Shown piece by piece: positions 19,176-48,708 of a stretch of 64,000 nt of DNA (the stretch's first letter is position 1; the number at the start of each line of letters is the position of its first letter). A model generated the notes under the pieces. That model did not search any database, was not told the DNA's origin, and was given only the letters and a program-made list of their open reading frames with translations. Both the position numbers and the translations under genes were made by a program. The DNA is from Lysinibacillus sp. ZYM-1. Its GTDB lineage: Bacteria > Bacillota > Bacilli > Bacillales_A > Planococcaceae. The stretch is taken from the NCBI RefSeq assembly GCF_001308875.1, contig NZ_KQ465108.1, forward strand, positions 124,001 to 188,000, written 5' to 3'.

Positions 19176-19859
19176 TTAATTTTTGTTTAATGAATCATGG
19201 TATCTTTTGAGCATCGTTGCAAATTGTTCGCGTGTTAAGAAATTTTGAGGATTAGAGCCATCGGTTATCCCTTTATTTCTTAACCATTCCCATGTAGTAT
19301 TATGTATTTTAGCAGCTTTTCTAGAAGGAATAATAGCTTGTTTTGTTTTTAATGTTTCTTCAAGTTCTTTAATTTTATTCAGTAATTCTGTATATTGTGA
19401 CATCGTCAACTCTCCTTTGCTAATTAAATTAGTATTTGCTTCATTCGTTAATGAAATATATTTCATAGGATCTATTGCATTTGGCTGGCCTTTATCCCAT
19501 TTTCCGTTATGTATTTCATAATGCAGATGTATACCAAATGCTCTGCCACTGTTACCCATTATCCCAATTTGTTGGCCTTGCTTCACACTTTGACCAACAC
19601 GAACACAATAAGAGTCTAAATGTGCATAATTCGTTTCGTATGTTTTGCCGTTAACGATATGTTTAATCATCACTACTTTTCCATAGCTACTTAAGACCTG
19701 GGCGCGACTTATTACACCAGCAGCACTAGCGTAAATTGGAACTTTTCCTGTTGAAGCAAGATCGACACCTTGATGCCACTCATTGCCATATCCGATATTT
19801 CTCCACCCAAATTTGCTCGTTAATCTTGCATTTTTTACTGGACAAATAAAATCTAGCAT
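19176..19859 (-). CDS. endolysin, M23 family metallopeptidase with C-terminal SLH-like segment
   Basis: The 227-aa protein has an M23 (lysostaphin-type) domain at about residues 5-130. The zinc-binding motifs are visible as WHQGVDLA (HxxxD) and HLHYEIHNG (HxH). A linker (MSQYTELLNKIKELEETLK) leads to a C-terminal segment, TTWEWLRNKGITDGSNPQNF, resembling the SLH-like wall-attachment end of Bacillus phage lysins. It should cut peptidoglycan cross-bridges when released by the holin, whose gene overlaps its start by 1 nt. It is the last gene of the late operon. Confidence 0.9.
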   Translation of the reverse strand: MLDFICPVKNARLTSKFGWRNIGYGNEWHQGVDLASTGKVPIYASAAGVISRAQVLSSYGKVVMIKHIVNGKTYETNYAHLDSYCVRVGQSVKQGQQIGIMGNSGRAFGIHLHYEIHNGKWDKGQPNAIDPMKYISLTNEANTNLISKGELTMSQYTELLNKIKELEETLKTKQAIIPSRKAAKIHNTTWEWLRNKGITDGSNPQNFLTREQFATMLKRYHDSLNKN

Positions 19860-20140
19860 TATTGATCATCTCGTTTCGGTTTTTTATACATTAAAGCGTG
19901 TGATGAATCACTTAAGCTAGCAGTAGTTGGATCTAAAACGGCATTATATGTACTTACAGCCATTAAGGCGATTACATATGGATTTGAAGCGGCGTTGACG
20001 AGTAGGGTCTTTACACTCGACCAGGTGGTTAAATCGGCGCCTGTAATACCGTAGTAGGCAAATAGGGGGGTAATAATCGATAATCCGACTGTAATCCAAA
20101 ATTGAGGATTATGGATGCGAACTTTCCAATTGATTTTCAT
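19859..20140 (-). CDS. phage holin (BhlB/SPP1-type)
   Basis: This 93-aa membrane protein has the phage_holin_1 pattern. An N-terminal KINWKVRIHNPQFWITV block leads into a first hydrophobic segment, a second follows (about 50-68), and a basic tail ends the protein (KKPKRDDQ). It would open the membrane for lysin release. The ATG at 20140 is preferred (AAAGGA about 10 nt upstream) over a TTG three codons earlier. It overlaps the endolysin gene by one base. Confidence 0.9.
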   Translation of the reverse strand: MKINWKVRIHNPQFWITVGLSIITPLFAYYGITGADLTTWSSVKTLLVNAASNPYVIALMAVSTYNAVLDPTTASLSDSSHALMYKKPKRDDQ

Positions 20141-20157
20141 AAAGATCAAATCCTTTC

Positions 20158-20571
20158 TTAGAGACCTAATTTAAATAATATCCATGCACTTAAAACTATT
20201 GTTGGCAGTAAAATCCACCATATAAGATACTTATACATAATTTCATTGAATGAAATTGTCCCCTTGCTTGTTTCGGTTTTTAAATCTTCCTCGATTCCAT
20301 CAACACGGTTACTAATATTTTTTACATTATTTTGTAATTCATCCTGAGACAAATTCAATTTAGTTAGGTTTAAATTTATGTTATTAAAAGTTTTATCCAT
20401 TTTATTTAATTGTATTTGTTGATTTTTATTCATTTCTTGCTGTTGTTCAGATACAATTGTTAAGCGGTAAAGTAACTCTTTATCTTTTTCTAAGTTAGTG
20501 AGTTTATTACCTTGATTTTTTAACTCTGTTTCTATACTTGCTAATCGTTCTCCAATTTTTTCATTCTCCAA
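20158..20571 (-). CDS. coiled-coil membrane protein of the lysis cassette (XhlA-like architecture)
   Basis: The 137-aa protein is a long coiled coil (about residues 1-105, heptads such as LASIETELKNQGNKLTNLEK) ended by one membrane helix (IWWILLPTIVLSAWILF). This layout resembles XhlA-type holin-associated proteins or tail-accessory proteins. It lies 17 nt before the holin gene and downstream of a terminator-like hairpin, so holin, endolysin and this gene form a discrete lysis cassette. Homology to XhlA is not certain. Confidence 0.7.
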   Translation of the reverse strand: MENEKIGERLASIETELKNQGNKLTNLEKDKELLYRLTIVSEQQQEMNKNQQIQLNKMDKTFNNINLNLTKLNLSQDELQNNVKNISNRVDGIEEDLKTETSKGTISFNEIMYKYLIWWILLPTIVLSAWILFKLGL

Positions 20572-20589
20572 TGTATCACCAACTTTTAT

Positions 20590-20645
20590 TAAAATAATAA
20601 AAGAGTAGGGGAGAATGAACTCACCTACTCAAAAATGAAATTTAG
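20590..20645 (-). terminator. terminator between fibre genes and lysis cassette
   Basis: On the minus strand GAGTAGG (20640-20634) and CCTACTC (20609-20603) pair, followed by TTTTATTATTTT. Full termination would cut off lysis genes from the fibre operon, so it is either leaky or the lysis cassette has its own promoter. Confidence 0.6.
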
Positions 20646-20961
20646 GGTTTATTAAAATTTATGTGCTTTATAAACCTTTTAGACTATTCTTAAATCAAAC
20701 ATTATTTATACTAGTGGATTACCGAGAGAGTCTGGTTTAACCTCTAATTTCTCAATAATAGCTTTTGCTAGTGATTCGATTGAATTTACTATAATTAACA
20801 TAACGCTCAATTTCTTTTTTTTAAAATTAGACTTTCCATTATTTACTGAACAATATGGAACTCAGTATCTACATATCTATAAATGTTGATATATCAGCAA
20901 TTATCAGCAAAGCGTTTTATCTACAAATGTTCAGTAAAAATCAGAATAAAAAAGCACCGCA
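20646..20961. other. degenerate region upstream of the lysis cassette
   Basis: I see no intact gene. A 31-codon minus-strand frame at 20706-20801 (MLIIVNSIESLAKAIIEKL...) looks like a leftover C-terminus. A 16-bp near-palindrome, TGTTGATATATCAGCA, lies at 20884-20899 and could be a regulator site for the lysis genes. Confidence 0.4.
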
Positions 20962-21125
20962 TTAACGGCGCTTTCTTTCCTCTTTGATTCTTTCGAGTTC
21001 CTTTTGATCTTCAATGAACTCTTTCATTTGCTGCTTAACCCATGGCGATACTTTGATGTCATGCTTAGCAGCATACTTGCATCCTCATATACTTCTGCTT
21101 CAAGTGTGATATTGTGTCGTGTCAT
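20962..21125 (-). pseudogene. frameshifted small phage gene remnant
   Basis: From an ATG at 21125 the frame reads MTRHNITLEAEVYEDA. Continuity then requires a shift to a second frame reading KYAAKHDIKVSPWVKQQM...KEERKRR and a stop at 20962. Both halves have coding character on the minus strand, so a small indel near 21076 is likely. The intact product would be about 54 aa and basic at its end. I do not recognise it. Confidence 0.55.
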
Positions 21126-21201
21126 TGCAGCCAATGTAGTCACTATATTGTCATAGGATGATATCAACACACATTCATACATATCGCACGATATGGAGCT
21201 T

Positions 21202-21366
21202 TTAAATACCTACTTCAGCCAATAGGATATTATCCTCGACAGCAATACAATAATCTTGATTTGTAATGTCATCAATAACATACACTTTTTCTGTTTTTGG
21301 ATTAAGACCACCTTTCAAAATACGTTCAGCTACAATTTTTACTCCTACTTGATTAACTGTATTCAT
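21202..21366 (-). CDS. small fibre-cassette protein, copy 1
   Basis: This 54-aa protein (MNTVNQVGVKIVAERILKGG...) begins at an ATG overlapping the previous stop by one base (TAATG), which implies translational coupling. It is a close paralogue of the 52-aa protein at 24668-24826. The shared core is GGLNPKTEKVYVIDDITNQD. The function is unknown. Its strict position after each fibre/partner pair suggests a fibre-linked role. Confidence 0.7.
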   Translation of the reverse strand: MNTVNQVGVKIVAERILKGGLNPKTEKVYVIDDITNQDYCIAVEDNILLAEVGI

Positions 21367-21656
21367 TATAAAATCCCTCCAATTTCATTGTCTGTTTGAA
21401 GCAATAAAGTATCTTCAAGTTCTCGAATACGTTTTTGTTCATCTGTTTCTTGTAAAGAGATTGTTTCAATGATGGCATTACCGTCACTGTCAATACCTTT
21501 AATAAGGTGAGTTATCGGGTCAAATTCATCAAACGGAATGTCAACAAACACTAACAGCTCTTTTGACCTCTCTAAAGCATCTCCTTCCATACGATGAAGA
21601 ACAGTAACGACATTCTTACTATTTTCTTCGTATATAATCCGTGTACCTACCTTCAT
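21366..21656 (-). CDS. fibre partner protein, copy 1 (possible fibre chaperone)
   Basis: The 96-aa protein starts MKVGTRIIYEENSKN and ends RIRELEDTLLLQTDNEIGGIL. The end is nearly identical to that of the 97-aa protein at 24826-25119. The middle is diverged. Small proteins of this kind encoded just after a fibre gene often assist fibre folding or assembly, but that role is inferred. The start at 21656 has AAAGGAGG upstream. Its first codons lie after the end of the fibre gene ending at 21676. Confidence 0.7.
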   Translation of the reverse strand: MKVGTRIIYEENSKNVVTVLHRMEGDALERSKELLVFVDIPFDEFDPITHLIKGIDSDGNAIIETISLQETDEQKRIRELEDTLLLQTDNEIGGIL

Positions 21657-21675
21657 ATGCTCGCTACCTCCTTTA

Positions 21676-23082
21676 TTATCCAAATGCGAACCAACGATAG
21701 GCACCTTCTGACCTACTGTTGTATGTCATAGACACAGTCATTTCAAAGCCTAGATAGTTGGAAACAAATGCTGGACTAGCAGCTAATAGACTACCTGTTT
21801 CGTTGTACGTGAAAAAATTTATATAAGCGTTAGCATTATTACTGAAGAATACATTCGACGGTGCCCATATAGACTTAAACTCGTTATTATTATTGTTTTC
21901 TTTAGATATGAATATAGCTGTCGGATTGAATGATAGCCCTGTCACAATAATTCTTGCCCTCCCTGAAACATTGGAAGCATAAGCAATCCCGCTAGCTTCT
22001 TTACGACCTTTAGGAATAAGACGGATATTGTTTGCCATATTCAGAAACGTTTCAACTGGCGAGGTATAAATATCCATGTCAGAGATGGCACTCGCCACTA
22101 ATGTCTTTCCATCACTGACAGAGGACTTTAAATCTTGAATTGTAAACCAAGCGTTATCATGTCCAACGAACCTAATGTCTTTCTGACCTAGTAATTGCAT
22201 CACAGGTTTTTGATCTAGGTCAAGGGAAACACCAAAGTTATTAGCTCCTGCTGCATTGTAGTACATTTCAAAGTATTTAGTTGCATCAGGCGTGCTTAAA
22301 GTTGGTGTCAGAGTAACTTTAGGAATACTTTTATTTATCTTTAAGTCTCCTGTCATCGTGTCACCTGACGCTTTTATAAATGATGCCCTCTGCGGAGTCC
22401 ACGGATAGCCTAGTTCAGTTGCAGAACCTGTGTCAACAATTTCGTGCGTTGCTTGACTTACTGCTTGGAACATATCGCTGCCAGTAGTACCGCATATCTC
22501 AATTTTTATAGATACTGGGTTTTTTGCGTCAGGAGCTTTAAAGATAGGTATAGCTATAGCTGTATCATTGTGAACGATGTCTCTTATAAAATATAATTTT
22601 GCAAAATCATTTGAAATGACTTGAATGTTCTTTTCGTAATACGTCATAGTATTTCCTGACTTACGAAGGCTGTGGACTACGATTGCACCTCCAACAGCCT
22701 TAGAGTTAACCCACTCAGAAGTGTAAGTAACTTTAATAATTCCAGAGAAGTTAGTAAAAGGAAAAGTTACTTGCCAAAATTCCGCAGTGTTAATTGTATA
22801 CCAGTCATTAGTGTCAATGTAGTACACTACCTCTACTGATGTGGCACCTAAGTTAGTAATATTAGTATCATTATAAGTACTTTTTTGCCATGAGTTATCA
22901 ATTTTAGGTTTCATTTGTTCTGATTGTTCAGAAACTTCAGACTGTAATGTAGTTAAATTATCACTTATTATATTCACATCATTAGTATCAGCTTTTTCAG
23001 CAACTTGATTTTCTAAATTTATGAATTTCTGTTTCATACTTTCATTTAAATTACCATAAGTAATTTTATTACCATTATACAC
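21676..23082 (-). CDS. tail fibre/receptor-binding protein, cassette copy 1
   Basis: The 468-aa protein starts at GTG with AAAGGAG 8 nt upstream. Residues 1-65 (MYNGNKITYGNLNESMKQKF, then a coiled coil) are almost the same as in the 482-aa fibre. The middle (FWQVTFPFTNFSGIIKVTYTS...) and an SVSDGKTLVASAIS...NMANNI block are diverged versions of domains in the 482- and 1158-aa fibres. The C-terminal ~120 residues are beta-rich and unique. It would trimerise through the N-terminal coil and bind a cell-surface receptor through its tip. Confidence 0.8.
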   Translation of the reverse strand: MYNGNKITYGNLNESMKQKFINLENQVAEKADTNDVNIISDNLTTLQSEVSEQSEQMKPKIDNSWQKSTYNDTNITNLGATSVEVVYYIDTNDWYTINTAEFWQVTFPFTNFSGIIKVTYTSEWVNSKAVGGAIVVHSLRKSGNTMTYYEKNIQVISNDFAKLYFIRDIVHNDTAIAIPIFKAPDAKNPVSIKIEICGTTGSDMFQAVSQATHEIVDTGSATELGYPWTPQRASFIKASGDTMTGDLKINKSIPKVTLTPTLSTPDATKYFEMYYNAAGANNFGVSLDLDQKPVMQLLGQKDIRFVGHDNAWFTIQDLKSSVSDGKTLVASAISDMDIYTSPVETFLNMANNIRLIPKGRKEASGIAYASNVSGRARIIVTGLSFNPTAIFISKENNNNNEFKSIWAPSNVFFSNNANAYINFFTYNETGSLLAASPAFVSNYLGFEMTVSMTYNSRSEGAYRWFAFG

Positions 23083-23143
23083 ATCATCAACTCCTTTAAA
23101 AACATGCTACCAAATATGAGTAGAGTTTAAATAAAATGACACT
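22890..23143 (-). repeat. duplicated 5' fibre segment with leader, copy 1
   Basis: This stretch (fibre codons 1 to about 64 plus ribosome-binding site and about 60 bp of leader) is highly similar to 26388-26641 in the same orientation. The two copies are about 3.5 kb apart. It includes a shared GTG start and identical ribosome-binding site. Confidence 0.75.
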
Positions 23144-23144
23144 T

Positions 23145-23321
23145 TTAATCATTTACTAATGTAGAAATCTCACGCTCTGAAATCTCTAACTCTACATAAT
23201 GTTGCAACTTAGTTGGTTTAACATCCGCAACCGTCCGAACTTCTCCCATTACACTTGTAGCATAAGCTTTAACCAATCGTTTTTGGACTAATGTCAATCC
23301 TTCAAGATGTGCTTCTGTCAT
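23145..23321 (-). CDS. small tail-operon protein (58 aa)
   Basis: MTEAHLEGLTLVQKRLVKAY opens a 58-aa frame whose ATG overlaps the previous gene's TGA (ATGA). Small proteins in this position (XkdX-like or CD1375-like) follow fibre genes in many Gram-positive phages. I cannot assign a family with confidence. Confidence 0.6.
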   Translation of the reverse strand: MTEAHLEGLTLVQKRLVKAYATSVMGEVRTVADVKPTKLQHYVELEISEREISTLVND

Positions 23322-23641
23322 TGTATAACCTCCAGTTCTGTAAGCATAGTCACTATCTTAATTTCTAGCTCTGCATTAGCAATTTCGTTCGGTGAAGGCT
23401 TTAATGATTCTAGTAATTGTTGTGCTTCACGTTCGTTTTTTTCTTCTTCTGTTTCACCTTCAATCCACTGTGTACCATCCCATTTTATTTTCTGGAATGG
23501 CAACTGGTGACCCAATTCGTTGGTAGGCAGTGGTTTTCCTACATATATTCCATCATCTGGAGTTAGTTCATCTTCCAGTAGGAATATTTCTTCTCCATAT
23601 AGCATAAACCCATTTTCATCTATTTTATATAATGTCCTCAT
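23318..23641 (-). CDS. fibre partner protein (107 aa)
   Basis: The 107-aa acidic protein begins MRTLYKIDENGFMLYGEEIF. It contains PLPTNELGHQLPFQKIKWDGTQWIEGETEEEK, a pattern resembling XkdW/YomR-type small tail proteins (W-D-G-x-x-W). The rest is charged helix. It follows the 317-aa fibre by 14 nt and is translationally coupled to the 58-aa gene. It is probably the assembly partner of that fibre, which is inferred from position. Confidence 0.65.
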   Translation of the reverse strand: MRTLYKIDENGFMLYGEEIFLLEDELTPDDGIYVGKPLPTNELGHQLPFQKIKWDGTQWIEGETEEEKNEREAQQLLESLKPSPNEIANAELEIKIVTMLTELEVIQ

Positions 23642-23655
23642 AAGAAAATCACCCC

Positions 23656-24609
23656 TTATTTGAATGATGAGGCAATAAAGATGTTGTGTTGAATATTGGA
23701 CGATGTTATATATATATCGCCACTACCATATATCGATATTACTGCCCCTTGCGGACTTACAGACCCAGATGCTGTAGTTACAACTCCGAAGTACATAGAA
23801 TATGTTTGAACTGGTCTATATCCAGCTGGTATCGTTCCTATTTTTGTTCCACCTGTCCTAGTGCCACCATAGATATCTAAATACAGTGTCAACATGTTAT
23901 TGTCTTCCCTCGTTATCTGTGCAAGCCCTTGCCACCCAGATATTAATGGAATATTGATTGTATATACATCCTTGGTTGATTTGCTATCAACTTGCGTCTG
24001 CAATGCCGCAACTTTGGCATCTACCTTACCAACAGCACCATATGATGGGAGAATATATGGATTGTTCGCCAAATCTGTTCCACCCTCGTACGAGGAAACC
24101 CATTGGACGCCTATTACTGTGAAATATAGACCGTCATATACCAGTTGATATACACGACCACCCTGTAATTCACCAGCGTTTTGGACCGCAGCTGCATATG
24201 TTTGGAATATAAAACTTTTTACACCCATGCCATTGATATTTAGGCTAGCCGCACCTTGTTTATTGTTCTCCAATAATTTTAATAATATTGTAAGTCCAGG
24301 TTTATATGCTGTCACATCTGGGATGTTCACATCATATGTTGTAGTTCCAGCAGTCTGTCTAGCTTCGACGTAGTATGAAGTGGACGCCACTGCAGACGCT
24401 ATGCCAGTTGCTGGGTCAACTTTAATTGTCTTACCATCTGGCTTGATATGACCTAAATTTTCAGTAGTTGCAATTTTAGCCAAATGTTCAGTAACTTCTG
24501 TTTTATTGTTTGTGACTGTTTGCCTTATCCCTGATAAATCTGTATCTATTTTCTGTTGCAAGGATGGGGACAGCTTATCCCACGTTGTTTGATTTCCTTT
24601 ATAAGTCAA
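23656..24609 (-). CDS. tail fibre protein (317 aa)
   Basis: The N-terminus (MTYKGNQTTWDKLSPSLQQKID) is an analogue of the MYNGNKITY start in the paralogous fibres. It is followed by a short coiled coil. NIPDVTAYKPGLTILLKLLENNKQGAASLNINGMGVKSF resembles domains of receptor-binding proteins. The last ~110 residues are beta-rich (GGTRTGGTKIGTIPAGYRPVQT), typical of phage tip domains. It is a fourth, distinct fibre, probably of different specificity. Confidence 0.78.
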   Translation of the reverse strand: MTYKGNQTTWDKLSPSLQQKIDTDLSGIRQTVTNNKTEVTEHLAKIATTENLGHIKPDGKTIKVDPATGIASAVASTSYYVEARQTAGTTTYDVNIPDVTAYKPGLTILLKLLENNKQGAASLNINGMGVKSFIFQTYAAAVQNAGELQGGRVYQLVYDGLYFTVIGVQWVSSYEGGTDLANNPYILPSYGAVGKVDAKVAALQTQVDSKSTKDVYTINIPLISGWQGLAQITREDNNMLTLYLDIYGGTRTGGTKIGTIPAGYRPVQTYSMYFGVVTTASGSVSPQGAVISIYGSGDIYITSSNIQHNIFIASSFK

Positions 24610-24667
24610 TGTATTATTCTCCTTTCATGCAAAATAAAAAGCATCCTATTAAGTTAGGACACTTGTT

Positions 24668-24826
24668 TTATACGCCTACAGTATTTGCTAGGATATAATC
24701 ATCGACAGCAACACGGTAATCTTGATTTGTGATGTCATCAATAACATACACTTTTTCAGTTTTTGGATTAAGACCACCATTTAAAATACGTACAGCCGCA
24801 ATTTTTACCACTACTTGATTTACCAT
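24668..24826 (-). CDS. small fibre-cassette protein, copy 2
   Basis: This 52-aa protein (MVNQVVVKIAAVRILNGG...) is a paralogue of the 54-aa protein at 21202-21366 and is coupled to the previous gene in the same way (TAATG). Nucleotide identity between the copies is high across the middle 100 bp. The function is unknown. Confidence 0.7.
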   Translation of the reverse strand: MVNQVVVKIAAVRILNGGLNPKTEKVYVIDDITNQDYRVAVDDYILANTVGV

Positions 24827-25119
24827 TATAATATCCCTCCAATTTCTGTATCTGTTTGCAATAATAAAGTATCCTCTAATTCACGGATGCGTCTTTGTTC
24901 CTCTGTTTCTGTATTAATTTCCTCAAGCACAGGCTCCTGTGTTTCTATATCAACGCTAAAAATTTTATGTTTTTTAAAATCAATAGCGCCATACTTTAGG
25001 TCGATGCTACTTAGTTTTTTTATTTCTTTGCGTTCTAGCACATTACCCCTCATCTCACCCAAGATGTGTATGATTTCACCGTCTTGGTCGAATATTATTC
25101 TACACCCTACTTGATTCAT
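24826..25119 (-). CDS. fibre partner protein, copy 2 (possible fibre chaperone)
   Basis: The 97-aa protein (MNQVGCRIIFDQDGEIIHI...) ends in RIRELEDTLLLQTDTEIGGIL, matching the partner protein at 21366-21656. The middle is diverged, so it probably co-varies with its own fibre. It follows the 482-aa fibre by 11 nt. Confidence 0.7.
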   Translation of the reverse strand: MNQVGCRIIFDQDGEIIHILGEMRGNVLERKEIKKLSSIDLKYGAIDFKKHKIFSVDIETQEPVLEEINTETEEQRRIRELEDTLLLQTDTEIGGIL

Positions 25120-25130
25120 TATTTCACATC

Positions 25131-26579
25131 CTATTCATACGCTTGATACTCATATAATACACTGCCATTGTCGTCTGTTTGTAACCAGAAAGAACTACCA
25201 TCCCATGCGCTACCACCTGCTGAATATACAGTATTGTACATTCCTTTATAAAATTTAAGGTCATTACCTACCACACCGATTTCTGCATAGACTGACCACC
25301 AATCATAGTTCCTGCGCTTACATAATACTGTACGTGGCTGAAACCCCAATCCTGTTAATCTAATAAAACTCCCTACATAACCAGGTCGATTAGTCACAGA
25401 ATATGCGTCACCTTCTGCAAATTTCTTACCTGTACTAACCTTACCAATATTAGCAGCCATCGTCGCAAACTCTGTTGTTGCCGATGTTGGCACACCTTTT
25501 TGGGTAATGGCGTTTGCGACTTGAGATTTACCATTACTTACAGATTGAAAAAGCAAAATAGGGGAAATCTCAACCCACGCACCCCATGTACCATCAATTT
25601 TTCTTCTTTCGTACTCTCTGTTATCGCCATTACCTGCAAAGGAAATGACCTTTTGAACTATCCATAGCTCGTTATGAACTATGTTGAACCCCATATGCCA
25701 TGTAGTTGTAGGTGCATTAGGAGTGTTTTCACCGCCCATGTACATACCGTTCTTTGTAAGAGTGTTCCAATCAGAGACGCCAACACATGCATCAGCAAAA
25801 CGTGAAAACAGACTACTATTCGTGGAGTTCCACTTATCTAAATCTGCACCTGTAGGTATTCTACTTGTCTGTGGTGTCCACGGGTATCCGTTAGCTGTAG
25901 GATCACCTTTATCCCAAACAGTTATATGTGCTTCATTCAACACTTGGAAAGCACTTTTATTAGAGAATGTATATCCTTGAAATTCTAACTTAATAATAAA
26001 AGGATTGTTTGCGGCTGGAGATCGGTTTAACATTAAAGCAATAGTACCGTTTTCAGGATTTATATACGGTTTGTGTATATAAAAGTCTTTAGCAAATGCA
26101 GGTGTTACTGTTTCTAGTACATAGTCGTTAAGTTTTTCTCCTTGACCCACGTAATTAGCTATCCTATATAATACAGTAGCTCCACCGTTGGATTCTGAAC
26201 CGCCCCAATAGGATGTGTAAGTAGCTCTTATTAATCCTGAAAAACCACTACCTACAGGAATAACTATATCTAATTGTTCAACGTTACCTGTATTCTTCCA
26301 GTCTGATTGATTGACAAGTAATACCTTTTCTGCTGTAAAGTTACCCATGTTACTGATTGTTACGTTATTTTCTTTGTTTCTTTGCCATGAGTTATCAATT
26401 TTAGGATTCATTACTGTCAATTGTTCAGTAACTTCAGACTGTAATGTATTTAAATTATCACTTACTATTTTCACATCATTAGTGTCAGCCTTTTCAGCAA
26501 TTTGATTTTCTAAATTTGTGAATTTCTGTTTTGTACTTTCATTTAAATTATCATAAGTAATTTTATTACCATTATACAC
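25131..26579 (-). CDS. tail fibre with pyocin-knob-like domain, cassette copy 2
   Basis: The 482-aa protein starts at GTG. Residues 1-65 match the 468-aa fibre, and the next ~170 residues share the beta domain found in all three large fibres. At about 250-335 a pyocin-knob-like segment occurs (SDWNTLTKNGMYMGGENTP ... WHMGFNIVH ... RRKIDGTWGAWVEI). An NGKSQVANAITQKGVPT block and a unique C-terminal tip follow. Knob domains occur in R/F-pyocin and phage fibres. It would mediate receptor binding. Confidence 0.82.
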   Translation of the reverse strand: MYNGNKITYDNLNESTKQKFTNLENQIAEKADTNDVKIVSDNLNTLQSEVTEQLTVMNPKIDNSWQRNKENNVTISNMGNFTAEKVLLVNQSDWKNTGNVEQLDIVIPVGSGFSGLIRATYTSYWGGSESNGGATVLYRIANYVGQGEKLNDYVLETVTPAFAKDFYIHKPYINPENGTIALMLNRSPAANNPFIIKLEFQGYTFSNKSAFQVLNEAHITVWDKGDPTANGYPWTPQTSRIPTGADLDKWNSTNSSLFSRFADACVGVSDWNTLTKNGMYMGGENTPNAPTTTWHMGFNIVHNELWIVQKVISFAGNGDNREYERRKIDGTWGAWVEISPILLFQSVSNGKSQVANAITQKGVPTSATTEFATMAANIGKVSTGKKFAEGDAYSVTNRPGYVGSFIRLTGLGFQPRTVLCKRRNYDWWSVYAEIGVVGNDLKFYKGMYNTVYSAGGSAWDGSSFWLQTDDNGSVLYEYQAYE

Positions 26580-42164: not shown

Positions 42165-42199
42165 ATAAATTACCATCCTTTTAGTTATAATTTTATTGT

Positions 42200-42955
42200 T
42201 TAACTAGGTTCAAGACCTAGTTTTTTCATTTGTTGATCAAATGTCGATTTTGTTATAATGACATCTTCATTTTTCTTTGGTTCTTCAATATACCCTAACC
42301 AATGGGGGAGATCTTGGTCATTTTTAAATTCGATTATCCCAGAATAACGCGCATTAAGAATGGCATCGCTACTTACCATATAATCCATACGAATTAAGCC
42401 CTTATGGAATTGATATAATGTTAAATGTTCAATCTCATGGTAGGGTAACCCTGATTTACAATGATAAGCAATGATTTGTTGCTCAAAATCTGCCTGTCTT
42501 GTTTTTCTTTTAGCCATAAATGCACGCGCCTCTTGGATAGCTTTTTTTGTACCAGGATCGATAAATTCATCATCTAAATCAATAAGATTTTGTTCACTAA
42601 TAATGGTTTTGATTTTATCGAAATCACGCTCATTTAAAGTGACGCCATCGACAATCATAAATACCATACCTTTTTCATTCGTTGAAATTTGAATTTCCTC
42701 AGTTTTAAAAACTAAACGGTATAATGAAATTAATTTATCTAGTATTCCATGTCCACCATCATTTTGAGAGATAGATAGTAAAAAAAAGAGGTAAGACATT
42801 CTAATGATTTCCGGCTGTTGAAAATCGTTTTTTGGTAAAAGTAAGCACTGTACAGCATCATAAAATTCGTCCGCGTCCTTCATTTTTACAGGATAAATAT
42901 TTAACCCTTTATATAAAAGAGGTTTTCCAAAAGCCTTTTTGGTGGTGATGTTCAT
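42200..42955 (-). CDS. hypothetical tail-module protein (251 aa)
   Basis: The protein opens MNITTKKAFGKPLLYKGLNI and is mostly helical with charged segments. No catalytic motif is visible. It overlaps the upstream gene by 4 nt and precedes the tube protein. Its size, helical nature and position are compatible with a tail assembly factor. No family is recognised. Confidence 0.65.
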   Translation of the reverse strand: MNITTKKAFGKPLLYKGLNIYPVKMKDADEFYDAVQCLLLPKNDFQQPEIIRMSYLFFLLSISQNDGGHGILDKLISLYRLVFKTEEIQISTNEKGMVFMIVDGVTLNERDFDKIKTIISEQNLIDLDDEFIDPGTKKAIQEARAFMAKRKTRQADFEQQIIAYHCKSGLPYHEIEHLTLYQFHKGLIRMDYMVSSDAILNARYSGIIEFKNDQDLPHWLGYIEEPKKNEDVIITKSTFDQQMKKLGLEPS

Positions 42956-43494
42956 GATCTATAACCTGTAGGTTGTTGTCCTGAGGGCATAATGTAACTC
43001 CAGCGATAACCAACAAAACCTTTTGGTAAATTGGTGATGGGGAGTCCACTATGGAATCTTAAATCCCCAAATTCTTCAATATCCTCTTGAAACAACACCT
43101 CATTTAGCACTTCACCAAGCCAATCAATACGAAAATCAATATTATTGACAGAATCAGGTGTATAAATATCAAAAATATATTGCTGAGTGCTTGAGTAGGG
43201 ATTATCCGTAAATTGATTGATGTTTTTTATATAATTTTTTTGGGGCAACCGAGGTCCTGTATATAAACAAATTCTACAAAAGTTTGTTTCTAGCGATAAA
43301 TCACTAGGTTTATCACCAATAACGATTAAATTTTTAAGTATATGTTCTTTCTCGGGTAATTGAGAGACATCCAATTTTGATTCGTCTAGTGGATCATCGA
43401 ATTGATCTTTTGGTATGTAGTACAGCAAACGCAGAAGTTTTTCATTATTTATTAATGAGTGATAAAATTCAGTTATATTTTTTACAATGTTCAT
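42952..43494 (-). CDS. probable tail-terminator/connector-like protein (180 aa)
   Basis: The protein starts MNIVKNITEFYHSLINNEKL and has LLYYIPKDQFDDPLDE and DWLGEVLNEVLFQ segments. These recall small head-tail connector or tail terminator proteins that open with an N-in-helix LLRLLxY...DDPL pattern. In transcription order it is the first structural gene before the tube protein, the normal place for a tail terminator. The assignment is by resemblance and position, not proven. Confidence 0.6.
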   Translation of the reverse strand: MNIVKNITEFYHSLINNEKLLRLLYYIPKDQFDDPLDESKLDVSQLPEKEHILKNLIVIGDKPSDLSLETNFCRICLYTGPRLPQKNYIKNINQFTDNPYSSTQQYIFDIYTPDSVNNIDFRIDWLGEVLNEVLFQEDIEEFGDLRFHSGLPITNLPKGFVGYRWSYIMPSGQQPTGYRS

Positions 43495-43582
43495 TCTCCT
43501 TTATCGCCTCCAAAAAAGAGTGTAATTTTGAAGGTTTCATCATTAAAAATACTTTACATTCATTTATCCATACAATAGGCAT
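43469..43582 (-). CDS. possible small overlapping gene (37 aa)
   Basis: MPIVWINECKVFLMMKPSKL begins after an AAGGTG and the frame ends 26 nt inside the next gene. The frame is short and basic and has no known match, so it may be chance. It is given because it fills part of an otherwise empty 260-bp gap. Confidence 0.35.
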   Translation of the reverse strand: MPIVWINECKVFLMMKPSKLHSFLEAIKENEHCKKYN

Positions 43583-43680
43583 CACCTTCTTTCATTTATT
43601 TATAAGGATTCATACTAGCTTATTTAAACTGTGTGCATTAAAAGTCTAAGCAACTTAATTATGAAGATGAAACCTTCATG

Positions 43681-43713
43681 ATAGGTCTGTATAAGGAAGA
43701 AATACAGACCTAT
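43681..43713. other. perfect inverted repeat in the 43.5-43.75 kb gap
   Basis: ATAGGTCTGTAT (43681-43692) and ATACAGACCTAT (43702-43713) pair over a 9-nt loop. No T-run follows on either strand, so mRNA stability or protein binding is as likely as termination. Confidence 0.5.
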
Positions 43714-43754
43714 TAGAAAATTTCATTTTTAATATGTATTTTAAATTAATTCAC

Positions 43755-44234
43755 TTATTGAATGGACTCTTCATCTAAATCCTCAATGCCAAGTGCAAGA
43801 GCTTCAAAATATGAGGTATTTGAAAATGTATTATGTCTGTTAGATCCTTTTTTTATTTCTTTCTGTTTATAATGGGAGAGTACGTAATTATCTTGTAATC
43901 GATGCGGTGTACTTTGATTATTAAGTAATTTTGCTAATTCTCTCCGCCTTTTATTCCGCTTTTTAGCTTCCTTAATATATTTTAAATTTTCTTCCTCTAA
44001 TAAAAGCTCTTCTCTAGTAAAATATCCTTTGGTCATATAATACCCAAGCATATCCAATAAAACGATCGTATGATGAGCTTGTGAGGTAATATTTAAATAT
44101 ATTTCTAAAGAGATCTCTTCGCCTCCATAAACGATTTTCTCATTTTCTAATATTGATTGTATGTATTGAACTCGCTCTTCTATTGGAAGCTCTAGATTTA
44201 ATTCAATTATCGTATGTGGTAATTGTATTTTCAT
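43755..44234 (-). CDS. hypothetical late-operon protein (159 aa)
   Basis: The second gene of the late operon begins MKIQLPHTIIELNLELPIEE. It is helical, with a basic patch (KYIKEAKKRNKRRRELAKLL) at about 95-115 and a polar C-terminal tail. The basic patch could bind nucleic acid. No family is recognised. GAAGGAGAA precedes the start. Confidence 0.65.
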   Translation of the reverse strand: MKIQLPHTIIELNLELPIEERVQYIQSILENEKIVYGGEEISLEIYLNITSQAHHTIVLLDMLGYYMTKGYFTREELLLEEENLKYIKEAKKRNKRRRELAKLLNNQSTPHRLQDNYVLSHYKQKEIKKGSNRHNTFSNTSYFEALALGIEDLDEESIQ

Positions 44235-44310: not shown

Positions 44311-44814
44311 TTATTTTTTACATTTTTTACATTGGGAATGGAACAAATCTCTACTGCTGCTATTCAAACTAAAAAATTCATCTGTAGCAGGAAGAATATC
44401 ATGACATTTACTACATTTTTTTGTTTTTAATCTTAATTTATTAATATAAGTTACTTTTCTCCATTGTCTATCATTCTCTTGTTTAATTTTTAGACAGATT
44501 GTATTAAATCTACTTCCAACAGTTTTAACGGGAATTCCTAAGATTTTCGCGATGGTATAATAGGAGTAGTCTTTAGTAATATAAGATAGTAGCTTAATTT
44601 GTTCTTCATTCAATGATTTTTTAATTAATTTATCTAAATCCGCAAATAGACTGATGACATCTGTGTTCATTTTTAAAGAATTTGTTGCACAAGCACCTTG
44701 ATTAAAATTTGTATCATCAATCGATCCTCTAAAAGTTAACAGCTCTTTTATAACTGTTATATCAGATAATACTAACTGATTATATTTCGTATCCTTACTT
44801 GTTTGAAAAGCCAT
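44311..44814 (-). CDS. sigma-region-4-like regulator with C-terminal zinc ribbon
   Basis: The 167-aa first gene of the late operon has a helix-turn-helix at about 75-110 (LLSYITKDYSYYTIAKILGI) resembling sigma region 4 or ArpU-type regulators. A C-terminal treble-clef/zinc-ribbon Cys set follows: CSKC at about 134-137 and CKKCKK at the end. Its place directly behind the main promoter fits a late-gene activator, perhaps autoregulatory. No full sigma factor domains are present. Confidence 0.65.
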   Translation of the reverse strand: MAFQTSKDTKYNQLVLSDITVIKELLTFRGSIDDTNFNQGACATNSLKMNTDVISLFADLDKLIKKSLNEEQIKLLSYITKDYSYYTIAKILGIPVKTVGSRFNTICLKIKQENDRQWRKVTYINKLRLKTKKCSKCHDILPATDEFFSLNSSSRDLFHSQCKKCKK

Positions 44815-44857: not shown

Positions 44858-44885
44858 ATTATAATCCTATTATAAAATAAATCAA
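44858..44885 (-). promoter_or_regulatory. SigA-type promoter of the tail late operon
   Basis: On the minus strand TTGATT (-35) and consensus TATAAT (-10) are separated by 16 nt, about 45 nt before the regulator start. It is the only good promoter I see for the 25-kb operon. Confidence 0.65.
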
Positions 44886-44943
44886 TATTTTAAATTAATT
44901 AATTTATTGAAGGGGATTTTATAAGAGCTGGTTTTTGATAATT

Positions 44944-44956
44944 TAATTGGATTAAT
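44944..44956. repeat. 13-bp element, copy A, in the divergent control region
   Basis: TAATTGGATTAAT occurs here and again at 47473-47485, each at a promoter. Here it overlaps the presumed -35 of the plus-strand regulator operon. It is a candidate operator for the MrpR-like repressor. Confidence 0.5.
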
Positions 44957-44976
44957 TAATTTAAAAATATTATAAT
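44947..44976 (+). promoter_or_regulatory. promoter of the yopQ/yopR-like operon
   Basis: A weak -35 TTGGAT (44947-44952), an 18-nt spacer and a consensus TATAAT (44971-44976) lie 65 nt before the start of the DGQHR gene. Confidence 0.55.
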
Positions 44977-45041: not shown

Positions 45042-46358
45042 TTGAAGGTTGGGAAAACTAAAGAATTATTAATAGAAGAGATTAAAACAAAAATTCCTTT
45101 GTTGGTTCAAAACGATTTAAAATTGGATGAAATTTCTGCACAACTACATAAACATCATATAAGCATTGGTAATATTCTTGAATTAATTAATGACGAGAGT
45201 AGGCTATATGAAGCAAACTTACAGGAACTTTTACTACTAGGGGAACAGCTTCATTTAAAATTTAATGATACTGATGATGATTGGTTAGTGAAATGGCTAA
45301 ATACATCAGAGGTCAAAGAGCTGAGGTTGTACATAAAGGAATCACCGTATGAAGAAACTATTACATTGCCATATACTTTCGAGAATACTCTTAAAACTGG
45401 TCACAATGAGTATGTGTCTGTAATCCCTAATTCAATGATTGGTAAACTTTGGATGAGTGGTATTACTATGTATAATCCAAATATTCAAAGGCAGGCAAAA
45501 AAGAAAAAGATTAAAAATGGAATTATAGAGGTTATGAATTTAAATCCAAAATCTTTACGAGATATTGAAAAACAAGCGCTGGAAGGAGATTTAATAACCT
45601 CTACTTTGCGCTATAATGCTAAAGTCGGTTCTGGAGAAAATGGAATTGAATTTATTTATGACGATCGTGATAAATCCCTTACCTTATTGGAGGGATCGTC
45701 ATTAGATGTTTTAGATGGCGCACATCGAACTTTTTCTATTTATAATGCCTATATGAAAAAAGTTGATTTAGAAGGTGCTATGGTAGTTATTTTTTCTAAT
45801 ATGACGGAAGCCCAATGTAAACGAGTTCAGGTAGATATGGCTAAAGCAAATCCAATACCAAAACCTCGCTTACAAGAATTAGCTAAAGATAAATTATCTG
45901 ATGAGGTTGTCATTGAATTAAAAGCTGAGGGAGAGTTAAAAGGGAGAATTACATCGAACTCCAATGTTAAATATTCATATGGTGAAGTAGTAACTTTTTC
46001 TGAATTATCAAATGCGATCGATAATAGCTTTTCGATAGAAAGTCGTCTCGAAATTATTAATATAGCTAAAATCATCAACGAATATATGATGTACCTCTTT
46101 GCTCACCATAAGGCAAACTTAATGGATAAACATTCATTAATGTTTAAGAGTAGAATGTTTATAGGACACATAGAATTGGCTGCTAGAATGTATGAGCATA
46201 GTATCCCATTTGAGAATTTAAAAAAGGTCTTAGAGCAAATAGATTTCTCAATTAATAATACTTTATGGGAGGAAATCGGAATTCTTAAATATGGTAATAT
46301 AAGTTCTCGTAATAGAATGAAAATCCAAAAAATATTTCAACAATTAATTTTAGAATGA
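45042..46358 (+). CDS. DGQHR/DndB-like protein, YopQ-like
   Basis: The 438-aa protein starts at TTG with GAGGAGG upstream. A DGQHR-type motif is seen as LDGAHRTFSIY at about residue 226. A following MTEAQCKRVQVDMAKANPIPKPRL block matches the F-x-N...N-x-x-K part of DndB-like proteins. The N-terminus is helical. In SPbeta, YopQ, of similar size, is encoded beside the repressor YopR. This pairing, recalled rather than searched, is the main basis for the name. DndB family members are DNA-binding regulators. Here it may modulate the adjacent repressor. Confidence 0.7.
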   Translation: MKVGKTKELLIEEIKTKIPLLVQNDLKLDEISAQLHKHHISIGNILELINDESRLYEANLQELLLLGEQLHLKFNDTDDDWLVKWLNTSEVKELRLYIKESPYEETITLPYTFENTLKTGHNEYVSVIPNSMIGKLWMSGITMYNPNIQRQAKKKKIKNGIIEVMNLNPKSLRDIEKQALEGDLITSTLRYNAKVGSGENGIEFIYDDRDKSLTLLEGSSLDVLDGAHRTFSIYNAYMKKVDLEGAMVVIFSNMTEAQCKRVQVDMAKANPIPKPRLQELAKDKLSDEVVIELKAEGELKGRITSNSNVKYSYGEVVTFSELSNAIDNSFSIESRLEIINIAKIINEYMMYLFAHHKANLMDKHSLMFKSRMFIGHIELAARMYEHSIPFENLKKVLEQIDFSINNTLWEEIGILKYGNISSRNRMKIQKIFQQLILE

Positions 46359-46367: not shown

Positions 46368-47354
46368 GTGCTTAAAGAAAATGTATTAAATAAAGATATT
46401 AAGGAATGGTATCTAAAATCATTAGATATACAAGATAACAGTCTTACTACTTATTTATCGCTATTTAATAAGGCAACATTACTAGAAAATCAAAAAAACA
46501 AAGACATATTTAACATGAATAAAGTAGAGTTGGAAGAGTTGTTTTATAGTTTAAAGTCGCCTAGTCCCCAATCCATCAGTGCATCTATCGGTTTTATTGG
46601 GAGATATATAGATTGGGCTATAATGAACGGCTACACTGATAATCGATCACAGAGACTACCAAGTATTATTGATATGGAATACTGTAGTAGATTTATCTAT
46701 AAAGCATCCATTGTACGTTATACAAGAGAACAATTATTAACATATATGCAGTTATTTGAAGATCAAAGACATGCAGTATTTCTACTATGTTTATTTGAAG
46801 GAATAAAAGGCGAGGGCTATAGTGAAATTTTGAATTTAAAGATGGAAGATTTAAAAGATGATAACGGGGTCTTCCTAGCAAAATTGACGAATAATAAGGG
46901 CTATAATCGAATCATTGAAATAACAGAAGAATTATATTGGCGGTTAGACAGGTTAGATAAAATATCTTCAACAAGTTTACAGCCTAAGCAAGGCCAAAAA
47001 TATTTTTCGGATAGCACTTTTATTTTTAAGAAAGCAAATGCAAAAGGAGAAGATCTTCAGCTTAGGGCATCATTTGGAAATAGAGCTTTGGATTTAGCAA
47101 AATCAATTTTTGACAACAGTAATTTGATAGCTAGTACAATTCAAGTTTCAGGGATGATGTGGTATATATGGGAGTTACTGAAACATAATGAAGAAAAGGT
47201 ACTTAATAAAGAAATTTTAGAGAAAGTTGCTAGTAAATATGATACTGGATATGTAAATAAAGATAGCAAGTATGTTAGTTATTCTATCCTCCAGCATAAA
47301 CTAGATTTTGATTTTATAAAAACAAATTATGGTTTTATCAATATGGGATTATAG
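46368..47354 (+). CDS. integrase-fold phage repressor, MrpR(YopR)-like
   Basis: The 328-aa protein starts at GTG 9 nt after the upstream stop. An N-terminal SAM-like domain (residues 1-90) precedes a tyrosine-recombinase-like fold (YTREQLLTYMQLFEDQRHAVFLLCLFEGIKGEGYSEILNL). The conserved R-H-R-Y catalytic set is not intact. The region after DSKYVSYSILQHKL lacks the nucleophilic Tyr context. The master repressor MrpR of SPbeta is this kind of inactive integrase. It is therefore read as the lysogeny-type repressor of the element rather than its recombinase. Confidence 0.72.
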   Translation: MLKENVLNKDIKEWYLKSLDIQDNSLTTYLSLFNKATLLENQKNKDIFNMNKVELEELFYSLKSPSPQSISASIGFIGRYIDWAIMNGYTDNRSQRLPSIIDMEYCSRFIYKASIVRYTREQLLTYMQLFEDQRHAVFLLCLFEGIKGEGYSEILNLKMEDLKDDNGVFLAKLTNNKGYNRIIEITEELYWRLDRLDKISSTSLQPKQGQKYFSDSTFIFKKANAKGEDLQLRASFGNRALDLAKSIFDNSNLIASTIQVSGMMWYIWELLKHNEEKVLNKEILEKVASKYDTGYVNKDSKYVSYSILQHKLDFDFIKTNYGFINMGL

Positions 47355-47432: not shown

Positions 47433-47462
47433 TTGAAAACGAACGTCTGTTCGTGTTAATAT
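47433..47462 (+). promoter_or_regulatory. SOS promoter with LexA box at 47440-47453
   Basis: A -35 TTGAAA (47433-47438) and an extended -10 TGTTAATAT (TAATAT at 47457-47462) flank the sequence CGAACGTCTGTTCG. This is an exact CGAAC-N4-GTTCG, the Gram-positive LexA (DinR) operator. Its position between -35 and -10 would block RNA polymerase until DNA damage. Confidence 0.85.
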
Positions 47463-47472
47463 AAAAATAATA

Positions 47473-47485
47473 TAATTGGATTAAT
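47473..47485. repeat. 13-bp element, copy B, downstream of the SOS promoter
   Basis: Second exact copy of TAATTGGATTAAT, just past the predicted transcription start of the LexA-controlled gene. Sharing it with the regulator promoter suggests a common binding protein. Confidence 0.5.
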
Positions 47486-47508
47486 CTTCGAAATAAGGAG
47501 AGATTTAA

Positions 47509-47973
47509 ATGAATGATAAGGAGACAACAGCAATATTGGAGCTTGTTATTTATAAAGATAGTGATATTTCTTTAGAGTTAATGAATAATTTCTATGGTAG
47601 TATTTCCAATGTAATTTTAAATGACGAAGGAGGAAATGCTTTAACATGTGAATGTATGGATAGCTCACTTTCTAGTTTAATTCTTATGGATAAATGGAAT
47701 GATGATGAGGTGGAGCTTATTAAGGGGATTGGTGATACAAAATTTATCTATAAAAAATCGCAGGAAATAGATATCCATTATGATAGTTTAGTGCAGTTAG
47801 ATGATCATAAAGATAATATTTATTGTGTTGTAGAATTCCAAAATATTGTTTATTTATATAATGGGTATCAAAGAAAATCCATTATCGAAAATAATATTAC
47901 CTGTCTGAAGAGTCTTAAAGATTATTTGAATCGTAACTATCCAAAACACAAGATTTTAGAAAGAATGAATTAA
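47509..47973 (+). CDS. SOS-controlled acidic protein, candidate anti-repressor
   Basis: The 154-aa protein has many acidic residues and no visible catalytic motif or membrane segment. It begins MNDKETTAILELVIYKDSD. AAGGAGAG precedes the ATG. The only strong clue is control: the promoter carries a perfect LexA box and a copy of the element-specific 13-mer. An SOS-induced gene beside a non-LexA repressor is the expected place of an anti-repressor. No family is recognised and the function is inferred. Confidence 0.7.
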   Translation: MNDKETTAILELVIYKDSDISLELMNNFYGSISNVILNDEGGNALTCECMDSSLSSLILMDKWNDDEVELIKGIGDTKFIYKKSQEIDIHYDSLVQLDDHKDNIYCVVEFQNIVYLYNGYQRKSIIENNITCLKSLKDYLNRNYPKHKILERMN

Positions 47974-48024
47974 GTTGGATCATAGTTATTAATAGATTGA
48001 TTAATGAAAAAAAGAGGTGTTTTA

Positions 48025-48198
48025 ATGGAGGAGTATTTAGTTAAAGAGTTTGCATCTGAGATAGTTGAAAAATCGAGAGGGAGAATAAGCATGATAGATG
48101 CTGAAGCATTAGCGATTGTTTATATAGCAAAGATGAAATCTATCTATCCACCCTTTAGTTTAAGAAAAATCTTTCAAAAGTTTGTTAATGATCTTTAG
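48025..48198 (+). CDS. small element protein (57 aa)
   Basis: MEEYLVKEFASEIVEKSRGR opens a 57-aa frame with GAGGTG 6 nt upstream. An ATG seven codons earlier lacks a ribosome-binding site. The protein is helical and otherwise unrecognised. It is probably cotranscribed with the SOS gene. Confidence 0.6.
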   Translation: MEEYLVKEFASEIVEKSRGRISMIDAEALAIVYIAKMKSIYPPFSLRKIFQKFVNDL

Positions 48199-48231
48199 TA
48201 CATGTTTTACATAAAAAAAGGGGGGTTACAT

Positions 48232-48468
48232 ATGATGGAAGTCGTAAAAGAAGAAACAGTATGTACTAATTTAGATGAAATTTTTTGTATGATTAATCAA
48301 GGTAGGGTTGTTGAAAATGAACAAAATTTAAGGGAATGTATAAATAAGTGTATAAAGCTCCAAGAAGGATTATTGAATTCTATTAAACTTATTGAACGGA
48401 CATATCTAGAATTACATAATAAAAGTGACCAAACTCATTTAGCATTAAATGCTGAATCTAATATTTAA
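48232..48468 (+). CDS. small helical element protein (78 aa)
   Basis: The protein starts MMEVVKEETVCTNLDEIFCM after GGGGGG. It is helical and contains five Cys residues. After its TAA the same frame continues 17 codons with coding-like sequence (KLLQLIKDSIHLMKGMS), so a longer ancestral C-terminus is likely. No family is recognised. Confidence 0.55.
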   Translation: MMEVVKEETVCTNLDEIFCMINQGRVVENEQNLRECINKCIKLQEGLLNSIKLIERTYLELHNKSDQTHLALNAESNI

Positions 48469-48522
48469 AAGCTGTTACAACTAATTAAAGATTCTATTCA
48501 TTTAATGAAGGGAATGAGTTAA

Positions 48523-48708
48523 ATGAACATAGTAAAAAATGATAGAAAACTTGCTTTGAAGGTTGATAGCTATGCTATGGCATTAGGTTATCAAGAGATG
48601 GGGGAATTAAATCTACGTATTTCAATGGAGATGGATCATTTAGAATGGGAGGCGCATAGAATTATAGAAGGCTTATTAAAAAGGGTAAATGTAATGGATG
48701 TTTATTAA
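48523..48708 (+). CDS. small element protein (61 aa)
   Basis: MNIVKNDRKLALKVDSYAMA opens a 61-aa, mostly helical frame preceded by AAGGGAATGAG. It is the last gene of the right-hand plus-strand set. No family is recognised. Confidence 0.55.
   Translation: MNIVKNDRKLALKVDSYAMALGYQEMGELNLRISMEMDHLEWEAHRIIEGLLKRVNVMDVY

Follow-up and report, generated by a model that had tools for sequence, protein, structure and literature searches.

We analyzed a 64-kb stretch of the 4.86-Mb genome of Lysinibacillus sp. ZYM-1 (G000:C3:124001-188000; hereafter, the window, with positions counted from its first base) that contains an element of about 30 kb built around a phage tail. A single leftward gene run of 25.6 kb (window 19176-44814) carries genes for an endolysin, a holin, fibers, Tal, Dit, a tape measure, a tube, and a sigma-like regulator, and it faces a rightward lysogeny pair of SPbeta type (YopQ-like and MrpR-like) and an operon behind an SOS box. 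The open reading frames (ORFs) lie where an initial annotation, made from the sequence, had found them, and coordinates and family matches agree with its description of a continuous tail operon of about 25 kb with regulator, tube, tape measure, Dit, Tal, fibers, holin, and lysin. We consider it highly probable, judging from the gene content and its conservation, that this block encodes a non-contractile (F-type) tailocin that is SOS-inducible and descends from an SPbeta-like siphophage. Genomes are given G-codes as labels; our samples comprised 32 genomes of the genus, 261 of the family (the order-level search took in the same 261), and 398 of the class. The features are as follows.

19176-19859, minus: endolysin, M23 peptidase plus C-terminal domain (PF01551, E 4e-27; omega 0.04-0.14)
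19859-20149, minus: holin (Phage_holin_1; PF04531, E 1e-21)
20158-20571, minus: XhlA-like small membrane protein of the lysis cassette (PF10779 weak, under the curated cut-off; phrog_32303)
21366-21704, minus: small fiber-associated protein, related to 24826-25119 (phrog_1626)
21676-23082, minus: tail fiber (phrog_26419 tail fiber, weak)
23318-23641, minus: small fiber-associated protein (phrog_1766 tail fiber protein, weak, E 0.002)
23656-24609, minus: tail fiber or minor tail protein (phrog_3971 and phrog_3285, weak)
24826-25119, minus: small fiber-associated protein (phrog_1626, E 7e-29)
25131-26579, minus: tail fiber, related to 21676-23082 (phrog_26419, weak)
26907-30383, minus: large baseplate-proximal fiber, 1158 amino acids (phrog_11315, E 2e-28)
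30644-33463, minus: Tal (tail hub), YomG-like (PF24049 YOMG_N, E 4e-32; PF06605 Prophage_tail, E 2e-20; phrog_6211, E 3e-208)
33469-34236, minus: Dit distal tail protein, YomH-like (phrog_33, E 2e-27)
34298-40507, minus: tape measure, YomI-like, 2069 amino acids, with M23 and phage-lysozyme domains (PF18013, E 4e-33; PF01551, E 3e-20; phrog_4211)
40583-41107, minus: tail assembly protein in the YouA position (phrog_7383; homologue after the tube in LC76P1)
41166-42176, minus: tail tube, YomU-like, with C-terminal immunoglobulin-like domain (profile against solved structures; phrog_2729)
42200-42955, minus: YomV-like tail protein (phrog_4051; 52% to LC76P1 homologue)
42952-43494, minus: YomW-like protein, possible tail terminator (phrog_9587; 47% to its LC76P1 homologue, which comes after the LC76P1 head module)
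43495-43754, no strand: gap at the place of packaging and head genes in related phages (LC76P1 synteny), with the ATGAAACCTTCAT box at 43667-43679
43755-44234, minus: conserved protein, function unassigned (33% to a partial homologue adjoining the LC76P1 sigma factor)
44311-44814, minus: sigma-factor-like late regulator (phrog_5767, E 3e-17; weak Pfam and weak NCBIfam; LC76P1 homologue 32%)
44858-44966, no strand: divergent control region and candidate repressor operator, with a leftward TTGATT-16-TATAAT promoter-like site and inverted TTTTAAATTAATT motifs (44888, 44954)
45042-46358, plus: YopQ-like lysogeny protein, DndB-like (phrog_5732, E 7e-78; 27% to SPbeta YopQ)
46368-47354, plus: MrpR-like repressor with recombinase fold (PF22822; solved YopR/MrpR chains, E 1e-11; 24% to SPbeta YopR)
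47440-47453, plus: LexA/SOS box CGAACGTCTGTTCG, the sole one in the window (GAACN4GTTC in 9/9 loci)
47509-47973, plus: SOS-controlled protein, candidate antirepressor (present in 9/9 loci)
48004-48708, plus: three small ORFs downstream of the 47509 gene (48004-48198, 48202-48468, and 48523-48708), partly conserved

Tube, tape measure, Dit, and Tal of siphophage type are all present in the block, together with the element's own lysis cassette (holin and M23 endolysin), and Pfam and PHROG scans of the block's proteins recognized no sheath family; a contractile particle is thereby ruled out. A profile built from the window tube and 15 relatives matches the solved tail tube chains 8k98 and 9jgh (E 5e-18), and phrog_2729 is matched by 16 of 16 tube relatives, so that by homology the gene product is evidently a true tail tube. 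Matches to solved structures settle the identities of both the tube and the MrpR-like protein. By their molecule names, the two chains are probably the tail tube of phage SPR, which is reported to trigger DSR2. Several database labels could mislead here: PHROGs classes the tube family as "head and packaging," includes "minor head protein" families among the matches of Tal and of the endolysin, and gives the name "integrase" to families that the MrpR-like protein matches. We rejected an active integrase for the MrpR-like gene, whose matches are to the MrpR family and to YopR of solved structure, XerC and XerD being reached only at E 0.08 and 0.006. The 42952-43494 product, "tail-terminator-like" in the initial annotation, keeps its YomW-type homology and its position and gained no further basis; it is a possible tail terminator. 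The tape measure spans 2000-2153 amino acids across the nine versions found at this chromosomal site, though most pairs are only 30-64% identical. Because the SPbeta tail measures 320 nm (PMC8270828) and its YomI has 2285 amino acids (from coordinates), the 2069 amino acids in the window scale to about 290 nm, close to the flexible tail of up to about 300 nm proposed earlier, and the nine versions together predict tails of about 280-302 nm.

The head module is missing. Family scans found no capsid, portal, terminase, or replication family among the block's proteins. In the Lysinibacillus phage LC76P1, homologues of the 44311 and 43755 genes are followed by terminase, portal, and capsid-type genes and then by homologues of 42952, 42200, the tube, and onward to Tal; the window has an interval of 260 bp between 43755 and 42952, where LC76P1 has its head module. 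When the 32 genus genomes were searched for the LC76P1 terminase and for the SPbeta portal family (B. subtilis being positive as a control), each matched only G001 and G023, two genomes that lack the element at this site. None of the nine carriers, G000 included, gave a genome-wide match to terminase or portal of SPbeta type (unrelated prophage heads in G000 were not searched). The terminase, portal, and capsid of SPbeta, LC76P1, and Perkons likewise had no match in the remaining 23 genomes, where 13.5 kb was read at the site. The SPbeta-type capsid was tested on IMG/VR loci and on the site stretches of element-free genomes. In IMG/VR, 23 of 33 loci are this element (L181-L203), listed as predicted proviruses of ~12-40 kb; the large terminase subunit (TerL), portal, and major capsid protein of LC76P1 had no match in the 12-18 kb checked of each, and TerL matched seven of the ten remaining loci. 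YonO had no match in G000; the window element has the sigma-like gene. As no head gene was recognized and the searches for terminase and portal of SPbeta type came back empty, we rule out an intact prophage or a gene-transfer agent.

The control region would link the tail operon to DNA damage. The SOS box at 47440 (CGAACN4GTTCG) is present in one copy in the 64 kb. A GAACN4GTTC box lies between the MrpR-like gene and the 47509 homologue in all nine same-site loci, 62-97 bp upstream of the latter, and reads CGAACN4GTTCG in eight of them; the chance expectation from base composition is 0.0017 per such interval. The element would be induced through the SOS response. SPbeta has a looser SOS box ~0.5 kb past yopR, the MrpR stretch of G133 contains a GAACN4GTTC box, and the sole such box in the 20 kb checked of G019 sits elsewhere. 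The 47509 protein had no match among 50,697 phage records or in Pfam, PHROGs, NCBIfam, and PDB; the full prophage in G001 carries a 25% relative next to MrpR. In the divergent region, the inverted TTTTAAATTAATT motifs adjoin the -35 of the leftward promoter-like site, and an exact 12-mer, TTTAAATTAATT, is found in six of nine loci, with near-matches in G028, G015, and G026. The MrpR operator is reported as 15 bp (PMC10516654), and we claim no match between it and these motifs. In the gap upstream of the YomW-like gene, the core of the ATGAAACCTTCAT box, GAAACCTTCAT, occurs once in each of the nine same-site loci, and the five stretches of SPbeta, LC76P1, and Perkons that were tested lack it. 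In five of the nine loci, the 10-bp core of the box recurs in inverted orientation ~110-175 bp away. The box is a possible late-promoter element.

The element occupies one site. The nfeD-like flank gene is present in 32/32 genus genomes, which allowed the site to be read in all of them. The tube search matched 12 of the 32, and MrpR finds the same 12. An intact headless element is present in nine (G000, G004, G012, G014, G015, G021, G026, G028, and G030), and in all nine the block lies between the same host genes; no larger prophage was seen at the site. Three further genomes hold remnants there: in G007 and G008 the lysin C-terminus alone is recognized, and G025 retains recognizable lysin, holin, and XhlA genes as well as the last part of the SOS operon. 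Among the 20 genomes without any recognized element gene at the site, the left flank gene is 145-930 bp from nfeD in 16 and was not found in the stretch read for G018, G019, G022, and G023. Comparison with empty sites showed no attachment-site repeat at the element ends. Presence-or-remnant is scattered on a host tree of three host genes, where it needs nine changes, reflecting either old presence with many losses or exchange via flanking homology. The tube gene also occurs in five named records, all Lysinibacillus (L. xylanilyticus DSM 23493, L. sphaericus OT4b.31, L. parviboronicapiens BAM-582, L. macroides DSM 54, and L. cavernae), and a plasmid search returned six weak MrpR matches and nothing more.

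Purifying selection acts on the tail and lysis genes. Omega (the ratio of nonsynonymous to synonymous divergence) and synonymous divergence (dS) were computed in four close genome pairs, and omega is mostly 0.01-0.3 in these genes (tube, 0.01-0.075; lysin, 0.04-0.14 in three pairs; holin, 0-0.27; YomW, 0.15-0.24; and, within one cassette type, tape measure 0.22-0.33, Dit 0.04-0.10, and Tal 0.05-0.28) and 0.03-0.10 in MrpR. The 0.31-0.46 obtained for tape measure, Dit, and Tal in G000-G004 is a comparison across different cassettes. The locus is kept by selection at a fixed site. Chassis proteins are mostly 72-100% identical (with minima of 60% for YomW and XhlA and 63% for YouA), and the window tube is 85-93% identical to the others. 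Tal falls into four types, i.e., that of the window, only 28-31% identical to every other Tal; that of G004, G012, G028, G015, and G026 (73-98% mutual identity); that of G014 and G021 (89%); and that of G030 (45-46% to G014/G021). G000 and G004 are 97% identical in MrpR, 98% in the sigma-like protein, and 31% in Tal. A conserved chassis, to judge from these identities, exchanges a cassette of tape measure, Dit, Tal, and fibers. G030 groups (weakly) with G014/G021 in a wider host-gene tree yet is closer to G000/G004 by MrpR, and its XhlA is 95% identical to that of G000; on this discordance, the XhlA sharing, and the low dS of some tail genes, we rejected strict vertical descent.

The lysis and fiber genes show further variation. 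The holin is present in all nine loci, accompanied in each by the XhlA-like gene, and a full-length lysin homologue in six; in G028, G015, and G026 only the C-terminal region of the window endolysin is recognized (~34-38%), and the catalytic part is apparently of another type. The window endolysin contains the HxxxD and HxH motifs of M23 peptidases. PHROG support for the fiber-like proteins is weak except for 26907-30383, whose N-terminus matches the same G019 and G066 proteins as SPbeta yomF. The PHROG name "rhodanese-related" for the phrog_1626 protein at 21366-21704 is not believed. Two related pairs of a fiber and a small protein adjoin each other in window 21366-26579, and such paired units may be a source of fiber switching via recombination. 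The C-terminal third of Tal has Gly-rich repeats followed by HxH-type histidine repeats (HSHSFSVPAHSHSFNVPSHDH...), suggestive of a metal-binding trimeric needle. An Rfam scan of the window gave 0 matches.

We favor the F-type tailocin reading because a headless tail and lysis set, a repressor pair, an SOS box, a fixed site, and selection coincide in one element. The absence of head, packaging, replication, and sheath genes and the retention of SPbeta-type regulators with an SOS promoter had been proposed in the initial annotation and held up, and the tailocin reading itself is supported; neither a head module elsewhere nor a larger prophage at the site, either of which it named as a refutation, was found within the scope given above. 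The ancestor would be an SPbeta-like siphophage from which the genes for head, packaging, replication, and integration disappeared. DNA damage would free the 47440 box of LexA, allowing expression of the 47509-48708 operon, whose first product might inactivate the MrpR-like repressor; the divergent promoter would then open, and the sigma-like protein would drive the tail operon. Tails of ~280-300 nm would assemble, and the holin and endolysin would lyse the producer cell. The fibers may bind related Bacilli, with the tape measure aiding the breach of the wall through its peptidoglycan hydrolase domains and membrane leakage doing the killing, and a swap of the tape-measure-to-fiber cassette on the conserved chassis would change the targets.

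Several points weigh against this reading. Particle formation, induction, and killing are all predicted from genes. The head search in G000 was confined to SPbeta-type terminase and portal. The GAACN4GTTC box was not found in the MrpR stretches read for G066, G067, G001, G023, and G164, and the SOS link is therefore supported only within the same-site group. The antirepressor role of the 47509 product, which matched no family, is a guess. The promoter scan found 30 sites overall versus 36 in shuffles, and the TTGATT-16-TATAAT site therefore proves nothing alone. The AlphaFold model of the tube is moderate only (predicted local distance difference test, pLDDT, 68.6; predicted template modeling score, pTM, 0.37), so we gave it no weight. 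Finally, dS often matches the host flank genes in range, but several tail genes have lower values in the pairs G028-G015 and G014-G021; in G028-G015 these are 0.07-0.15 (yomV, tube, youA, Dit, holin, and Tal) versus 0.28-0.54 in the host flanks, which suggests recent between-species exchange rather than long separate descent.

The best surviving alternative, which we regard as unlikely, is a functionless, decaying SPbeta-like prophage remnant whose head part was by chance the first to be deleted. Presence is patchy, with no trace of the element in 20 of the 32 genomes and clear remnants in G007, G008, and G025, and the YopQ-like gene of G021 is broken, split into two overlapping frames (G021:C1:1750012-1751321); the patchiness and the split gene also count against the tailocin reading. 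The tail genes found in G021 stay open despite the split. However, the tail and lysis set is open in nine species (three with only the C-terminal part of the lysin recognized) at the omega values given above, the SOS box is conserved, and the same headless set in all carriers is not expected from random deletion. We see very little room for a satellite that donates tails to complete helper-phage heads, for its own or the helper's spread: a complete tail set under repressor control and full SPbeta-like prophages in the genus (G001 and G023) would suit one, but no active integrase, packaging, or replication gene was recognized in the element, which is fixed at one site, and SPbeta-type terminase and the element never occur together among the 32 genomes. 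Equally improbable are headless tails that do not kill and serve as a signal, as matrix, or as a decoy for phage or for defenses that sense tail tubes, such as DSR2, which the SPR phage tail tube is reported to trigger (PMC10981675, PMC11263360); such a role would be in keeping with the homology between the window tube and tail tubes of solved structure, but the target-recognition part is the most exchanged, as weapons would show, and the lysis cassette is retained.

Headless SPbeta-type tails are also present outside this site. The tube profile matched 16 of the 261 family genomes, with a portal in 4 (G001, G023, G133, and G164) and none found in 12. The portal-less tubes outside this site belong to G019 (same genus), which keeps yonJ/yonK- and yomM-like genes, and to G066 and G067 (another genus). 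G066 keeps YonO (47%) directly upstream of its headless tail operon, and its element lies between what is recognizable as a spoIIA/sigF operon and nucleoside phosphorylase genes; in G067, the tube is on a 28.5-kb contig in which no portal was found. Among the 398 class genomes, eight matched, two of them already counted; of the six new ones, G367, G603, and G614 have a portal, and in G513, G442, and G616 (another family) none was found. In these three, a YonO-like gene is directly upstream of the tail genes, and 60 kb gave no match to the terminase, portal, or capsid proteins from SPbeta, LC76P1, and Perkons. The tape measure of G616 is in two ORFs, so this copy may be broken. In sum, 15 of 22 tube-positive genomes lack a recognized SPbeta-type portal (the nine same-site genomes, G019, G066/G067, and G513/G442/G616). 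This share is overstated, a further caution for our reading, since the profile missed the tubes of at least two full phages, G465 and G354, in which the terminase was found 5 and 3 kb downstream as a working control.

Trees took in the 12 family members (G513, G442, and G616 were not included). A single origin of all headless elements was rejected by the tube (approximately unbiased test, p-AU 8e-6) and by MrpR (p 0.005) and was not rejected by YopQ (p 0.12). When G019 is left out, the tube value becomes p 0.029, and YopQ and MrpR join the window group with G066/G067 with weak support. The nine same-site sequences as a clade are not rejected by the tube tree (p 0.385) but are not set apart by it; YopQ and MrpR set them apart. 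Separate head loss is thus likely for G019 and unsettled for G066/G067.

YonO-like genes were found in 10 of the 398 class genomes, and YonO-like proteins are reported in the main genomes of numerous firmicutes (PMC5467207). In G344 (L233 5854-20138), the ORFs read show a YonO-like polymerase followed by fiber-like genes only. In G482 and G450, BLAST matched YonO and a yomF relative and found neither tube nor Tal. The YonO-like polymerases of G344, G482, and G450 are 95-98% identical to that of G513, and G344 and G513 have neighboring host genes in common; these loci are either a further reduced derivative or a repurposed polymerase-fiber locus. In G437, reference tail proteins had no match in 40 kb. 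We put it at slightly short of an even chance that SPbeta-type tails have repeatedly turned into headless weapons across Bacilli; some chromosomal YonO-like polymerases of Firmicutes would then be dedicated engines of tailocin operons.

F-type tailocins are rare, one paper naming only F-pyocin and monocin before rhizoviticin (PMC10811719). Monocin of Listeria (the ftb cluster) is a flexible headless tail with a holin-lysin cassette and SOS induction in a Gram-positive host, features that the window element has or is predicted to have; monocin differs in being an 18-gene cluster of rather weak homology to phage A118 (PMC7076858), while the tail and repressor in the window are of SPbeta lineage with MrpR/YopQ-type control. 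The two are set apart here by description. F-pyocin and rhizoviticin of Proteobacteria are also non-contractile headless tails with regulators, tail, and lysis genes (PMC10811719, PMC12090994), but they have Gram-negative producers, the descriptions consulted mention no MrpR control, and F-pyocin is described there as having ancestry in common with lambda. SPbeta itself has the YopQ-YopR pair and homologues of tube, tape measure, Dit, and Tal, but its genome of 134 kb also encodes terminase, portal, capsid, and YonO, none recognized in the window element. LC76P1 has the sigma-like, 43755-like, YomW, YomV, tube (64%), YouA, tape measure, Dit, and Tal genes in the same order, but its genome is 165 kb long and places terminase, portal, and capsid-type genes between 43755-like and YomW (the comparison, MrpR and YopQ included, covers 41 kb of the 165 kb). 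The phage tail-like bacteriocins of PBSX type and of Brevibacillus laterosporus are domesticated phage-tail particles of Bacilli as well; they are contractile, with the sheath XkdK (PMC9406221), unlike the window element, in which no sheath was recognized. The open-access literature searched held no description of a headless SPbeta-type tail (subscription journals were mostly, and preprints wholly, outside this scope). The best reading is a known kind of system, the F-type tailocin, in which SPbeta descent and control would be new.

If this is true, the element adds a further F-type tailocin lineage, based on an SPbeta tail and present in 9 of the 32 genus genomes. It would offer a readable control circuit and a natural target-switching experiment, with one chassis and four tip cassettes (by Tal identity), and, as named strains carry it, it is directly testable. 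Because IMG/VR lists the element as short proviruses, counts of Lysinibacillus phages may be inflated. The link to YonO suggests a testable role for chromosomal YonO-like polymerases. For the genus, the most likely picture is that several soil Lysinibacillus species keep, at one chromosome site, what would be a tail-shaped weapon released by dying cells.

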